A DNA stretch of 64,000 nt from Apteryx mantelli (lineage: Eukaryota > Chordata > Aves > Apterygiformes > Apterygidae): assembly GCF_036417845.1 (NCBI RefSeq), contig NC_089985.1, positions 27,362,583-27,426,582 on the forward strand. Direction: 5' to 3'. The notes beneath the pieces were generated by a model. That model worked only from the letters and a program-made list of their open reading frames with translations, ran no database searches and was not told the DNA's origin. A program made the position numbers and the translations under genes. Each line of letters opens with the position of its first letter. The stretch's first letter is position 1. This document shows, piece after piece, positions 15,699 through 48,700 of this stretch.

Positions 15699-16453
15699 TT
15701 AAAGGCTTGTCACTAGTTGCATTTGTCCTTCTCTAACATCCCCTTCTGGAATACATCCTTCCTTGTTAATGGGAATTATATAGCCGTCGCTATTACCCCT
15801 GCTGATTTGATAGTACATCTGAAGCTGATGGCCAGCTCCAAGATTTGGCATGCTCTTGTAGTAAATGTCCTCATTTTCACTCCTCCTGGAGGGAGAGAGA
15901 TCTTCTTCAACGTCAGGGCTGCTCTCTGGGAAAGGAGAGTCTCTGAGGTTGGGCATGCTCGTGTAAAGAGAGTCTCTGTTGGGGGACTGGAGGTGGTCGT
16001 CAGCCTCAGCCGTCAGCTGGGAGACGTAGCTGTCAGTTCCTTCGGTCTTCACTTTCTTCTGGGGCTGGTACAGAAGGGAGTGAGTCCGCTGCGGAATAAG
16101 GGGGGCCTCCAGCTCCTTGTGGTGGAGCTCCAGTCCGGGGGTGTCGCTGTGCATCAAAGATGACGCATCGGCCACAATGGCATCATCTTCGCTACTGCTC
16201 CCGCCGATCACAGCTTTGGCTGGCAGCGTGCGCTCCAGGTTGTGGTTCTTGCTGCTGCCCCGCAGGTTGTTGTGCACTAATTCTGAAATGATCATTTTCT
16301 CAAAAGCAGTATCATTCAGGCTTAGTCCACAGTCTACAACTTGCACACTGTCGTTATAGTCTCCGTTGCGCAATGAGTAGCTGTTGTTGAAATTACCATT
16401 TAGCGGTAGAGTATCCATGGCACTTGTATCCCTGGCATTGTTCAGTGAATGTC
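15699..16453 (-). CDS. ADGRL2: ADGRL2 terminal coding exon: C-terminal tail with PDZ ligand
   Basis: Encodes [19 protein letters not shown] and about 230 further residues to the TAA at 15699-15701. Recognisable segments are [64 protein letters not shown], the twin YTSMPNL / YKSMPNL repeats, [14 protein letters not shown] and the final QLVTSL. The last four residues VTSL form a class I PDZ ligand, which in latrophilins binds Shank scaffolds. The acceptor is CCATTTCAG. The first 61 bases are also coding in a second frame when the 52-nt cassette is included. Confidence 0.98.
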
Positions 16454-17430
16454 CTGAAATGGAAAAGGACAGTTCTGGTTATCGCCTGATGTGCTTTTTA
16501 GCACTTTTTTTTTTTTTTAACAAAATTCTTTAATGTAGTTCAGGACAAAGTTGTACTTGGAAGTAAGACTCGAGAAAAGTTAGGTTATTGCACATTCCCA
16601 AATGTAAACAGTTGCACACCTTATAGGAAAGATGTATTTAAAAAAATAGTATCATGTATTTCCTGTGGGGAATAGTGGCATTTTAATTTCTTAATTTAAT
16701 GTCAATTCTGTGACTCTTCCACAAGGAACTGTTCACTCCATGCCCTTGCATATGTAATGCAAAGCAATTCATTTGGAAACATCTACATTTTGAAGTACAA
16801 CACCATGATTTAGAAAATAAAATTAACAGAATTTGTCCTAAACGACACTAAATTAAAAAGGAATTAGATCACAGACATAACTGAAGGTAAATGTACAACA
16901 TAAACCCCCATAACTGGCAGGCAACTACTTTACTTTAACGACATTTCTAAAATTGTTTCCCTTTTTTTGAGATGAAGTAAAGAAAAGAATGAAAAAAATG
17001 GATAAATACAAAGAATTTATGTTAAACAAGGACAGCCATCTTTCACACTACAGGGACCAGGGTCCACAAGCACCATCCAACAACACGATAGACAGCAGGT
17101 GGAATGACTCACTTTGGACAACTCACATCATGTCTGTCTGCTCAGGCTATCTGGCCTAAGAGTAGCTGATATATAAAAGAAAGTAAAATGATTTATTGTA
17201 ACATGATGAAGAATTACTGAGCTTCTCAGCAACTTAGTCAGAGCAAGGGTTCAGCAAATTAGATTACTAAGCAATAACAGCTTTTCTTTTCCCACTTAAT
17301 GTAATTTTTTTGCACTAATATTCTGTCTACCAACAACGGCCCCAGGCTTCTAAAGGTCAAAGTTTGCCTGCAGTCTGCATCAGTCACAGTGACAGCGCTG
17401 AATGAACCAGAATAGTTAATTAAGAGTTCG

Positions 17431-17449
17431 GCCCATGGTTACCATGGGC
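17431..17449. repeat. 19-bp inverted repeat with 9-bp arms
   Basis: GCCCATGGT-T-ACCATGGGC, perfect arms around one base, in the last intron of ADGRL2. Function unknown. Confidence 0.9.
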
Positions 17450-18882
17450 ATGGAAGTCAAATGCAGAAATGTTAGGAATTTCTGTAAGTATGGGTCACAG
17501 AAATTAAACCAAAGAATAAATATTAGTCGTGGAATGGGAAGAGGAAATCAGCCATGGCTGATATCTTATAGCTGCTGGAGGAATGACAGATTGGGTAAGT
17601 CTGCTGGAAACATGAAAAAAAGTTCTGGGGGAGGAAGGGGAATGAAGTCTTATGATGATTAAGGTCTTTATGTTTTGGGTTTTGGCTTTTTTTCGGTAAC
17701 ACAATAAAGGAATGTTTTTTCTATAGACACAAAGACATGTAAACTATGACATCACAGCGCTTCCCAAGCAAAGAAAAAAGAAAAAACTTTGAAAGAAAGC
17801 AAACAGCCTGAACCATGGAAAGTTAAATTGTTACAGCACTGCTAGAAAATCACTGTATCTACAGATATGGCTGGAAGTAAAGAAAGAATGGAGTGATGTT
17901 ACTGAAATGAGACTGACCACTGTGAGGCTGCTGCATTATATGCAAGGCTTGGAGGAGTACAAGAAAAAAGTTGTTTTGAAAAAGATTATGCATTTTCCTG
18001 TTTTAGGTTTGTTTCATAATTAAAGCTGCAGCTTATCCTAGAAAATTCAACCTTCTCTAGAACATATTGTTTTCAATTAAAAAGTAATTGCATTTTCTCA
18101 TGAAACAATTTTTATCTTTGACTTTTAAAACACAGAATAATAATTTCTAAATAAATTCTGTTTGAGTAATTTGCAAATCATTTTGCATTTTTGTTACTGT
18201 AACTCTTTTCCATGTGTACTGAACCCATGATGAGGGTTGTTTGAAAGGTCTCTTTAAGCTTTGATTAAACAACTTCGTAGTTCTGCAATTTCATATATGT
18301 TCCAAGATTTTCCTTGCAACGGATTTAGCTGTGCAGAACATATGGCATTTATAAAAGTAGACAACACATGGACCACATGCTGGCATTCATTTCCCTCATG
18401 AAAGTGATTTAATTCTATAATTTTCATTCTTTTTTCTTCTGCTAAACAGATACCAAAACATATCTGATAATCCAAAATGAGTTTTCTATGATATACTGCA
18501 GAGTTAAGCATGCTAGAAGATATTCAAACTGGTTTGATGAGGCAAATTTTGTTGCCCATGATCAGGTAATTCATTTGAAATCTTTCCATAGCCTGTAGCA
18601 AGATTACTGTGGGAATGTAAAAAAATAAGTAAATTGTTAAGCATTTCTGCTTGACACTGCTTTGGTTTTAAACAGCAAATTATTTCAGCATTGCATAACT
18701 TCTGTTACCAATAGGATTTGCTACAGACCTCATGTTGTTTTCCAAAAAGCAGTATGCAAGTACTTTTGGAATGTGGAAACATTTCATTTGCAAATTGTGA
18801 ACCACTTGCCCACTGAGTCTACTTCATGACCGCTAGTTATGTTTTAATTGTGCCCATTAAAAATCATGCTGAAAAAATTTAC

Positions 18883-18934
18883 ATTTGATAGGCAAAGTTA
18901 AGTTTTACTCCCATACTTGTCTCTCTGTAGGTTG
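18883..18934 (-). CDS. ADGRL2: 52-nt frame-shifting cassette exon (alternative C-terminus)
   Basis: On the minus strand, GCTTTCCTCTAG precedes 52 bases and GTAAATTT follows. After a phase-1 exon it reads (A)-T-Y-R-E-T-S-M-G-V-K-L-N-F-A-Y-Q, matching the latrophilin tail segment YRETSMGVKLN.AYQ known from mammalian ADGRL3. Its length is not a multiple of three, so inclusion shifts the terminal exon into another frame. There [20 protein letters not shown] ends at a TAA (16393-16395). If the donor were not used, a TAA would follow directly after AYQM. The result either way is a short tail lacking the PDZ ligand. Confidence 0.85.
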
Positions 18935-19726
18935 CTAGAGGAAAGCATAAGGAAAGTAAGAAAACAAGAGAATGAAAATAGAAACTACAGTTCAGTTAAA
19001 AAGGAAACTTGAAATAAAAACTGGAAGCAAGGTTTTATGAGCTCTTAATCAAAGATTTAACACAGTTTCAGCTATCCTACAAGTTATTATCAAACTGTAA
19101 CTACTAGATATTTACTGATGAGTGATCTGCAGTTAAAAAAGCAACTAGATAACGTAACAGCAAAATGTTAGGTAAGCGATGACACCCTTTATTCCTGCAG
19201 AACTAAACTGTTCTAACTGCTAATCTCAAGATTTTCCTAAAGGAATGATCTACCATAAAGCTGCACTATACTATAGTTTAGATCTCTTTGACGCTGGATA
19301 CAATTTTCTACACTGCAGTATCCAAAGGTGTCAAGATGCCTTGCGCTGCTTTGTTATCTAATCCGCTCCGTAAGCAGGTTTTTCTCAGCAAGAAACCTTA
19401 TATTGCATAGACGTGATACCTCTAAGTGATAAATATCTTGAAGATGGGCTCTCGGACCATGGGGTGTCAGTCCTGTAATAGTATATTAAGATTTATGCCA
19501 CCTGTGTTAAAAACATGGATAATTATTGGTAAATACTGTTATGGCAAAGGCATTACTATAATATAGTGCAGTTTTACAAGCTAACATTGGCAATACTGTA
19601 TTTCTTGAACTGACAGAAATTCAGAATGTAAGGCTAGGATATTGCAACTTGAGCTTCTATCTAGGGAAAGGAAGGGATTTGGAGCGAGCCAAGAAAAGCA
19701 GTTTTATTCAGGAAGTATAAGCACAC

Positions 19727-19855
19727 CTGGTGAGTTAAACACAGGAGCTGAAGGGGCATTACATACAACTGTTTCAGCGAGCAATGTGTTATAGGGGTTG
19801 TTAGTGCCGTGTGGTCGAAGAAGAGGGTTTGTTAGTAGGTAATTGCCAGTCATTC
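19727..19855 (-). CDS. ADGRL2: 129-nt cytoplasmic-tail cassette exon
   Basis: Encodes [18 protein letters not shown] then [14 protein letters not shown] and [10 protein letters not shown], entering and leaving in phase 1. Because it is symmetric, skipping would join LNQ-G directly to HSLNN without a frameshift. It matches the mammalian ADGRL2 tail segment very closely. The acceptor TTTTGCTTTAG carries a UGCUU element 4-8 nt upstream of the exon. The donor is CACCAG|GTGTGC, somewhat weak. Whether it is skipped in this species is inferred. Confidence 0.95.
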
Positions 19856-22552: not shown

Positions 22553-22649
22553 CTTGATTAAGTGTTGAAGTGCTGTTGATGTCACCTGAGATAAAAGAAG
22601 ATTCAGATTGTTTTCTCACAGTGTCATTCCACATCCTCCTTATACGACT
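22553..22649 (-). CDS. ADGRL2: ADGRL2 exon: cytoplasmic tail
   Basis: This 97-base exon encodes [18 protein letters not shown] then [14 protein letters not shown], a segment almost unchanged among latrophilin paralogues. It leaves one base (G) of a Gly codon. The acceptor is GTTAACAG and the donor is AATCAAG|GTCAGT. It can join the 129-nt cassette, the 52-nt cassette or the terminal exon, since all three accept phase 1. Confidence 0.97.
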
Positions 22650-27772: not shown

Positions 27773-27799
27773 TTGATAAATGGCTTATTATCTTCATAG
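27773..27799 (-). CDS. ADGRL2: 27-nt microexon in intracellular loop 3
   Basis: On the minus strand, GCTTTCTAG precedes 27 bases (CTATGAAGATAATAAGCC at the start, ATTTATCAA at the end), followed by GTAAGATC. It encodes Y-E-D-N-K-P-F-I plus the split Lys codon. After the 45-nt exon it reads G-Y-E-D-N-K-P-F-I-K-S-W; after the core exon it reads N-Y-E-D-N-K-P-F-I-K-S-W, the form usual in mammalian ADGRL3. It is phase-neutral. A UGCUU element lies at 27805-27809, 6-10 nt upstream of the exon. Confidence 0.92.
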
Positions 27800-28087: not shown

Positions 28088-28132
28088 CCAGGTAAGTCCG
28101 TATTATAGTAGCCATCACAAACACGGTAATTA
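28088..28132 (-). CDS. ADGRL2: 45-nt alternative exon in intracellular loop 3
   Basis: On the minus strand, CACACCAG precedes 45 bases ending CTTACCTGG, followed by GTAAGATAG. In phase with the exon before (AA|T) it reads N-N-Y-R-V-C-D-G-Y-Y-N-T-D-L-P-G, a loop-3 insert I know from mammalian latrophilins. It has 15 codons, starts and ends in phase 2, and so can be skipped or included without a frameshift. A 37-nt almost pure pyrimidine tract (28145-28181, minus strand) lies upstream, suggesting PTB-type control. Inclusion level cannot be known from DNA. Confidence 0.92.
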
Positions 28133-45715: not shown

Positions 45716-48700
45716 CTGCATTCATTAGAAAACTATCATTAGGTCTGACTGCCCCAGGCAGCTGGGGAAAATTTCCAACATTATCTGGTGACAATTATAA
45801 TACTTAACTGTCAGAATGATTTACTGTGATTTAATGGCACTAGAAAACTATTGCCAACATAAAAATATTTTCCATCCCCTTGCTGAACTAGCATTAACAG
45901 AAGCGCAGCCACTAGTACTGTGTTGTCCCTAAGTGGTAAACATGCATATTTGACTCATCTCATGTCAGATATAAAGAAGTCTTATTAATGTGCTGAAAAA
46001 TTTAAAAATAAATGCTACAAGTTTTGCCCGAAGCTTTCATCTTAAAGTTAATGTCAAAATACATAACTTCTATTTAAAAATACTAATGCCAAAAATGGCA
46101 TTCTGTAGTTTTGGCTAACTTAAGACAACTCATGCAGCTAGAGCACCATAAACTGCTTGTCTATGACAAACTGCCTTCTTTATTACAGGAGGCATGAAAT
46201 GAAGCTGACTCAGTGGATATAAATTAACCTGGGCCACTCTCACTCCCCCTTCTGTTCCTGTACCTGTTCATAGATATTTAAAAAGATTACTAACTCTCAT
46301 TCCTGCACAAAGGTCAGTTTAAAAAGGAAATCAATAGAGCAAACAAGATGTCCACTGACTGTCCCTGTTATCAGTGAAGGCAAAACTGTAAAACTGAGTA
46401 AAGCTGCCATTTAAAAAAGTCTGTCTTGTAACAACTCTATCATCGTGTTTTAAGGTTCATTAAGCTGCATATAAAGTAACAGTAAATAAGGAGGAAAAAA
46501 GAATTCAGAGACATCGTTACATTATTTTTACAAAATAATTCAATCAATCACAGTAATCAGTTAATCAATTGAAGGCAGGCTCTTACAATAATGCATAATG
46601 TAGCTGTGCATTGAGTATGCTGTGCATTGAGTATGCCATGCATTGCTGAAACACCATGTTTACTCTGTCCCATTTACCTACTCATAATGTGTCCTTAAGC
46701 ATATATATAATTTGTTTGATCAATTTAAAAGCATTGGGAATGGAAACAGAACATGTTGTACAAACAAAAATATTTTGCTCTGGAATACTGTATTGTGGAA
46801 ATAAATGAATAGAAAAAGTTGGTCGAGACTATTGTCAGAGCAAGATTAATTAGCCTAATCCATTTTAATATCCTCTTTCTGTCTGCACTGTGAGCCACCA
46901 CGACCTTCCTGGCAGGTGGAAGATACTTCGAAGTGGCATTAAAGCCTTTTTTCTTTCTCTAATGGGAGACAGAATAGTCAAAATGCTCACACTGATACTG
47001 CTGCAGCCATTAACTAGAGTGGAACAGAAATTGGTCTGCAGAGGCCAGATTCATTAGTCACCAAGAAATACAGATTGGAGCCTCTAATCTGAGGTACAAA
47101 TGAATCCTCTGTCACAAAGTGGGAACTTGCTTCATTTGCATAGTGTAAGCCAGCTTTTGAGTTGTAATTTCAAGAGGTTTATTAGTCTTATCTGAGCAGG
47201 GAAGCCCGTTTGAGACCTACAGAAAATGACACTGGTCAGAAATGAAGGTTGTGCCAAAGTTTCTTGTGTATCTCTGTATAGGGCTGATGGTATGCATTAA
47301 TTAATATGAAATGCTTTTTATTTATTATGGAATAATCTAACTCTGGCTTTTTCATTGGAATCAGAATGGTCATCTGTGCAATGATACTTCTGAGGCGTTC
47401 TCTCCCCTCAGACAAAAGAGACATGGAAGGTGGAAAGACCACGCTGCCCCTGCAACGCATCAGTCTAGGCAACTCAATTACTGTTCTTCACACAGTAATA
47501 TTTATTACTAAAAATTAAAGTATGAAAATTCAGTTTACTCCAACAATACCTGCTGGATTACCCTTTACTATGAAAAATCATGTTTTCTAATCAAAAACTA
47601 TTAAAATTATTATTTGTGAAGTGAATTTCTCTCCTGATCTTTGTTTCTTTTTGTTGATTTATTGCTGTAACTGGTCATCTCCCATCCCTTTTCTAGGCTG
47701 CAGGATGAAAGAGAGAAGGACTGTACAGAGAGCTGTCTCTTCAGTAAGTCTGCCTTATTTTATTATGTTGCAAAGTATTTCCAAGTTCTTTTTAAAAATC
47801 ATTCTTACATTTAATCTCAGAGGGTACAAGTAAAACCCAGTGTTTTAAAAGAAACTTTGAAAAAATATGCAGTAAAATTTTTAAGAGCCTCCGACTTGAT
47901 CTATTCTAGGTCTTCTTCTCTCTTCTTAACAGGACTGGGGTGGCATTACTGGCATTGTATCACAGAGTAGGAGCTGACAACTACAGACAATCATTCTGCG
48001 GAAGATGAAAGAAACTGAAAATCAGGCAACATATAGCCTGGTTAGTGGGATATACTGGCATATATTGGCAATATATTAGCATATATTGCTTGGCATATAT
48101 TTTTCTAGTGAAGTTGGAGAAATGTTTTTCTTTACATTTTATCCTGAAATTGCTGAATCTGGCCTTTGTAAGAACTCTTAAAACTGTAAGAAATAGTGAT
48201 TTTACTAGGTATAAAAATGCACAAGGAACAAAGCAGGCTATATAATGTAAATTTTTCATGCAAGTAAATTTAGTCTAACCAGTCTTTGATATAAAAAACT
48301 ACCAAGGTGAAGGAATTTCTGATCAGTTGCCAGCTTTTTCCTCTACCCAAAGTCATATTACAAGGAAAGAAATGTTACTTCCAATTCAGATAATAACCAT
48401 TTCTGTTCTTATACTTTTGAGAAAGTGGAGGTAAAAGAGGTATAAAATTTGATCTTTTTCTTTTCTGAGAGTTTTATACCTGTGCAAAGCCAACATTTGT
48501 ACAGTTGATATGGGGCACAATACACATTTATCAAAGACTGAAATACATAGGATCATGCAGCAAGATGATAAAGCGTGGCAGGTTGCTGAAGCAGGGAGAA
48601 AGCAGGGTGACAGCACAGGAGAGATACCTTAAGGTAAGCCCTGCATGTCTTCTCTCGTTTTTGGAGCTTTTTAGTAAGAAAAAAGAAAATCAGAAGTTAG

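Follow-up and report, generated by a model that had tools for sequence, protein, structure and literature searches.

The 64,000-nt stretch of Apteryx mantelli DNA analysed here (the window) holds the 3′ part of ADGRL2 on its minus strand. When the joined C-terminal exons were compared with PDB chains, the best score was obtained for 7wy5 (ADGRL3), and 9e51 (ADGRL2) was near-identical over 93 residues; the Pfam family PF02354 (Latrophilin C-terminal region) matched the same joined exons at 8.7e-172. We also searched with 21 query rows drawn from mouse Adgrl2 exons 12–31 (PMC13108381 Table 3), and all 21 mapped collinearly to the minus strand, from 50831 down to 15695. Because of these chain and domain matches and the conserved exon order, we assign the gene to ADGRL2. 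Its features are listed in Table 1. The main-frame tail of the terminal exon carries two SMPNL copies and the PDZ ligand VTSL.

Table 1. Positions of the ADGRL2 features in the window, in transcript order, with the basis for each
Feature	Position	Strand	Basis
Homologues of mouse Adgrl2 exons 14, 23 and 24	48628-48666, 28088-28132, 27773-27799	-	100% identical
Exon 27b homologue, upstream, ends in phase 1	22553..22649	-	Mouse Adgrl2 exon 27b, 88.7% identity across 97 nt
Exon 28 homologue, 129 nt, in frame (MTGNYLL...FNSP)	19727..19855	-	Mouse Adgrl2 exon 28, 93.7% identity across 127 nt
Exon 29b/29a homologue, 82 or 53 nt, two acceptors	19420..19501 (29a: 19420-19472)	-	Mouse Adgrl2 exon 29b, 90.2% identity across 82 nt
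52-nt frame-shifting cassette, homologous to exon 30b of mouse Adgrl3, encoding (A)TYRETSMGVKLNFAYQ	18883..18934	-	45/52 identical to exon 30b; AG/GT borders
18-nt in-frame short form, homologue of mouse Adgrl3 exon 30a; internal donor CAA/gtatgg; predicted ATYRETR before HSLNN, frame kept	18917..18934	-	Exon 30a also 18 nt, same 3′ border
Homologue of mouse Adgrl2 exon 30, 39 nt, own stop (ATLRPDSLSRQT*)	17127..17165	-	38/39 identical to mouse
Terminal coding exon, homologous to exon 31 of mouse Adgrl2/Adgrl3; 250 codons in the main frame, to VTSL	15699..16453	-	Exon mapping, translation, PF02354
Putative dual-coding start of terminal exon: shifted frame (M) plus 19 residues, TAA at 16395-16393	16393..16453	-	Translation, codon comparison

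The homologues of exons 14, 23 and 24, which are alternative exons in mouse Adgrl2, were identical to mouse at every DNA position (39/39, 45/45 and 27/27, respectively); the adjoining exons 13, 15, 22 and 25 were 78 to 89% identical. A mouse Adgrl1 tail query did not find an ADGRL1 locus in the A. mantelli genome, its two matches being the ADGRL2 and ADGRL3 loci. For E32, the alternative last exon of mouse Adgrl3, a query of the first 148 nt gave no match in the window or in loci L001–L006 at E 0.01.

The cassette that an initial annotation of this DNA had proposed as a 52-nt exon matched mouse Adgrl3 exon 30b at E 3.9e-14 in a search against the window plus six loci. The two exons have the same length, phase and internal donor, and their 16 whole codons differ by three silent and two replacement changes. 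The splice sites had been described as good, which holds for the acceptor (...ctttcctctag; 17 of 20 bases are pyrimidines, and AG is absent over about 50 nt) but not for the donor. Ranked with an approximate matrix among all GTs of the minus strand, the 52-nt donor AAT/gtaaat is weak (88th percentile), and the internal 18-nt donor scores above it (94.6 percentile). On the same scale, the alternative exon 27 donor, known as 27a in mouse (CAG/gtgaca at 22586 on the minus strand), reaches the 98th percentile. The junction positions named in the initial annotation coincide with exon ends known in mouse, 22553, 19727 and 16453 with those of Adgrl2 and 18883 with that of Adgrl3 exon 30b. Around the cassette there is one GCATG 13 nt downstream, and a pyrimidine-rich tract and TGC 13 nt before the acceptor; the motif TGCATG is absent within 200 nt on either side.

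The border at the internal donor (ACAA/GTATGG) is identical in the window and in mouse Adgrl3 exon 30a, and the ADGRL3 isoform 3 chain 7wy5 has PYRETK before GLLNN, as expected of an 18-nt form. From this correspondence the 18-nt form is predicted for A. mantelli as well.

Translation of the joined exons yielded the frame shift that had been proposed. With the cassette skipped, the terminal exon is read for 250 codons to VTSL; the long tail of the initial annotation is thus recovered, but not its length of about 230 residues. The 0-nt form reads ...NQGHSLNN... and the 18-nt form ...NQATYRETRHSLNN..., both continuing to VTSL. When the cassette is joined to 16453, the split codon AT/G supplies the initial M of the shifted frame, and its stop falls at the early position that had been predicted. 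The 52-nt form then has a short tail of 37 residues after NQ or NSP, from which both the PDZ ligand and the SMPNL repeats are removed, as claimed.

The core of the shifted peptide is identical in 13 of 13 residues to the shifted peptide of mouse Adgrl3. The resemblance to a mammalian short tail that the initial annotation had noted is therefore upheld for mouse Adgrl3 exons 30b and 31, but not for mouse Adgrl2 itself, where the shifted peptide differs and the tabulated exons (27a/b, 28, 29a/b, 30 and 31; Table 3 of PMC13108381) include no 52-nt cassette. Among PDB chains the short tail had no matches, and its peptide strings occurred in no paper of the open-licence collection searched. Because of the exon 30b homology and the complete identity of the shifted core to that of mouse Adgrl3, we judge the cassette to stand above chance, and by its sequence it is the homologue of a real exon. 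The cassette could nevertheless be a decayed relic in this ADGRL2, left unspliced or spliced as the 18-nt in-frame form only, as the weak 52-nt donor, the better-scoring internal donor and the missing entry in the mouse Adgrl2 table would suggest. We consider such decay improbable, since the cassette is intact in length, phase and open frame and at both its acceptor and its donor, its whole codons differ from mouse Adgrl3 by the three silent and two replacement changes counted above, and the downstream shifted peptide is fully kept.

The frame switch is already known in the paralogue mouse Lphn3. In the portions of Wang et al. (2024, PMC10830413) available to us, exon 30b shifts the frame of exon 31, is present in 20 to 25% of mRNAs in ribosome-bound neuronal RNA, and on inclusion moves coupling from Gαs to Gα12/13. 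The same portions report that the Lphn3 E31 protein joins SHANK-containing condensates and that the E32 protein and E31 without its PDZ ligand stay out of them, the E30b form being unnamed in that context. Mouse Adgrl3 (exons 30a/30b and 31, lettered as in PMC13108381 Table 4) resembles the window in having a 52-nt exon with an internal donor after 18 nt in the same phase, a shifted 13-residue core closed by an early TAA, and a long form that carries the PDZ ligand. The two genes differ in the ends of the shifted tail, which starts IGAS and ends STTEW in mouse Adgrl3 but reads MTFT...STAKW in the window, and in the 39-nt stop-bearing exon that ADGRL2 has in addition, between the cassette and exon 31. 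Expression, the frame shift in mRNA and the change in coupling were demonstrated for mouse Lphn3; the window gene is a different paralogue, for which we establish the sequence, homology, frames and codon conservation. What is added here, at the level of sequence, is the ADGRL2 cassette with its 18-nt donor, the contrast with mouse Adgrl2 and the third-base conservation of the overlap.

We think it very probable that ADGRL2 in the window has the counterpart of the exon 30/31 switch known from latrophilin-3, with the choice among 0, 18 and 52 nt setting a long or a short tail and with a dual-coding core. In the mechanism we propose, alternative splicing would place 0, 18 or 52 nt after exon 27/28 and ahead of the terminal exon. 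An insert of 0 or 18 nt would keep the main frame and the long tail, with its two SMPNL motifs and VTSL, whereas 52 nt would move the terminal exon one frame over and give the 37-residue tail without either element. By analogy with the mouse paralogue, the short-tail receptor, having no PDZ ligand, would probably leave SHANK-type scaffolds, and it would probably couple less to Gαs and more to Gα12/13. Over its first 61 bases the terminal exon would then code in two frames, with the core 13 codons apparently constrained by both.

Since the new stop lies in the last exon, short-tail mRNA should escape nonsense-mediated decay. The early stop does raise the prospect of a poison-exon switch, in which the frame shift would lower the receptor level through such decay. 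We rejected this explanation as highly improbable because the stop falls within the exon that is last in the mouse Adgrl2 table, with no junction after it; moreover, the mouse Lphn3 counterpart, as described in the portions of PMC10830413 cited above, occurs in ribosome-bound mRNAs at the frequency given and changes G-protein coupling when included.

Exons 27b, 28, 29a/b, 30 and 31 of mouse Adgrl2 all have counterparts in the window, where the 27a donor is also present. Two of them, exons 29 and 30, appear from their sequences to be further tail-ending exons conserved with mouse. Exon 29a (53 nt) would bring the terminal exon into the third frame for three codons (DIH*), with the predicted product GLTPHGPRAHLQDIYHLEDIH, and exon 29b (82 nt) is predicted to stop within itself (GGINLNILLQD). 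The single difference in the exon 30 homologue replaces the TAA of mouse with TGA and so keeps the stop. If exons 29 and 30 are spliced directly to exon 31, their stops fall either inside the final exon or no more than about 50 nt from the final junction, by distances counted by hand. These two exons, together with the 18-nt in-frame form and the published mouse Lphn3 switch, go beyond the initial annotation.

To gauge the shifted frame, we recoded the main frame at random with synonymous codons 100,000 times, a null model that presupposes saturation. The shifted frame was open in 30% of recodings, and in 4.5% it was open and stopped at the same codon. Since so many random recodings are open, we rejected the open frame alone as evidence. 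Agreement with the ADGRL3 shifted peptide was far rarer: the mean match was 4.8 of 13 residues, at least 11 of 13 (the value of mouse Adgrl2) was reached in 0.014% of recodings, and 13 of 13 in none of the 100,000. Because of the saturation assumption, a comparison within the exon is the fairer control.

We therefore compared the terminal exons of the window ADGRL2, mouse Adgrl2, the A. mantelli ADGRL3 (locus L003) and mouse Adgrl3, with mouse Adgrl1 as control. Of the 19 codons in the overlap, the codon test covers 16; the leading three were dropped because the exon starts of ADGRL2 and ADGRL3 differ. Counts of same-amino-acid codons exclude Met and Trp. Third bases of the window ADGRL2 were identical to those of the A. 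mantelli ADGRL3 at 14 of 16 overlap codons versus 104 of 225 in the rest of the exon (p 0.0012), and to those of mouse Adgrl3 at 14/16 versus 94/227 (p 0.0003). Where the amino acid is the same, codons agreed at 12/14 in the overlap versus 53/100 in the rest for the A. mantelli ADGRL3 (p 0.018) and at 12/14 versus 42/104 for mouse Adgrl3 (p 0.0015). The two ADGRL3 genes shared all 15 such codons in the overlap, against 113 of 186 elsewhere (p 0.0008). For the window ADGRL2 the 13-codon core was the most third-base-conserved segment of its length, ranking first of 232 against the A. mantelli ADGRL3 and first of 234 against mouse Adgrl3. Between the two ADGRL3 genes it is among the 7 of 251 segments with full third-base identity, and 19 of 238 segments equal the core when the window is compared with mouse Adgrl2.

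Mouse Adgrl1 has an 18-nt in-frame exon before its terminal exon, at the place of exon 30a and similar by eye, but its terminal exon, read in the shifted frame, does not encode the short tail; Table 2 of PMC13108381 lists the 18-nt exon 26 followed by exon 27 and no 52-nt form. Identical codons for shared residues numbered 0 of 8 in the overlap between the window ADGRL2 and mouse Adgrl1, compared with 43 of 99 in the rest of the exon, and 1 of 8 compared with 36 of 70 for the A. mantelli ADGRL3.

The first 60 or so nucleotides of the terminal exon might instead be conserved for splicing enhancers or an RNA element of a regulated acceptor, the cassette being real but the second frame immaterial. 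Exon starts are often constrained, and mouse Adgrl2, with no cassette in its table, likewise shows raised third-base identity in the overlap: 13/16 versus 96/227 against mouse Adgrl3 (p 0.0025) and 13/16 versus 104/225 against the A. mantelli ADGRL3 (p 0.006). Its same-amino-acid codons gave 10/14 versus 46/101 (p 0.06) and 10/14 versus 47/97 (p 0.09), respectively, and codon identity between the window and mouse Adgrl2 was 13/15 versus 120/201 (p 0.03). As the raised identity persists in mouse Adgrl2, constraint there is at most weakened. The shifted peptide also varies freely at its end, where STAKW and STTEW are separated by two differences (A/T and K/E) that leave the main protein unchanged. 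An enhancer, however, would be indifferent to frame.

We counted the direction of changes over exon bases 11–61 in the four sequences, which have six variable sites; scoring began after the ten leading bases, in which the genes differ. Within the core, the shifted peptide is unaffected by two differences that alter the main protein (A/V and M/T), neither of which is confined to mouse Adgrl2. With mouse Adgrl2 set aside, the core thus has no main-silent, shifted-changing differences and two main-changing, shifted-silent ones, with a cassette presumed in the A. mantelli ADGRL3. Mouse Adgrl2 shows the reverse, two and none: its exon 31 reads EQCPGHKC in the shifted frame, where AGG to CGG and GAT to GAC are silent in the main frame but change the shifted peptide (Q to P and Y to H), leaving 11 of 13 core residues. 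In the A. mantelli ADGRL3 (L003:8981-9100) an ACG (Thr) in MDTLPLNG is silent in the shifted frame; the position is ATG (Met) in mouse ADGRL1, in both ADGRL2 genes and in mouse ADGRL3.

The shifted frame therefore looks held across its conserved stretch of 13 residues but free towards the end, a pattern drawn from few changes. This reversal, and the absence of shared overlap codons with mouse Adgrl1 despite its 18-nt exon, argue against conservation for splicing signals, which we rate as unlikely, although less so than decay of the cassette. Selection on both frames, as the initial annotation had suggested, is supported by the codon statistics, with four informative sequences and small counts.

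These comparisons also bear on the history of the short tail. We tentatively suggest, at somewhat less than even confidence, that it is a dual-coding element that predates the ADGRL2/ADGRL3 split, was kept in both genes here, and was lost from mouse Adgrl2 together with the cassette, after which it would have been eroded by changes silent in the main frame. Our caution has two reasons, namely that the legend of a 2019 review (PMC6629964) allows a mammalian Adgrl2 cassette and that mouse Adgrl2 is weakly relaxed, its apparent relaxation resting on two substitutions. As far as that legend goes, mammalian Adgrl2 may have such a cassette, and since the mouse table gives known exons, mouse Adgrl2 may have an unannotated one.

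Dual coding through non-triplet splicing has been surveyed in worm and human (Nat Commun 2026, PMC13247117). In the text available from that survey, a non-triplet alternative exon sets the frame and the wobble bases of the overlap are more conserved, both of which resemble the window; its main text, as available, does not name latrophilins. In the open-licence papers searched, including the available parts of PMC13197933, PMC13247117, PMC6667449 and PMC6510184, we found no description of an ADGRL2 frame switch or of the exon as dual-coding.

Our analysis would extend the published Lphn3 switch, in which coupling changes and the PDZ ligand is dropped, to ADGRL2 of an animal other than mouse, and it points to a stretch of DNA on which two protein frames seemingly act at once. 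If mouse Adgrl2 has truly lost the exon, a form that may exist in other vertebrates is missed by rodent work on latrophilin-2, and the two genes would together offer a clean test of overlapping-frame selection. If the proposed history is true, the latrophilins would provide a natural before-and-after test of such selection in a vertebrate receptor.
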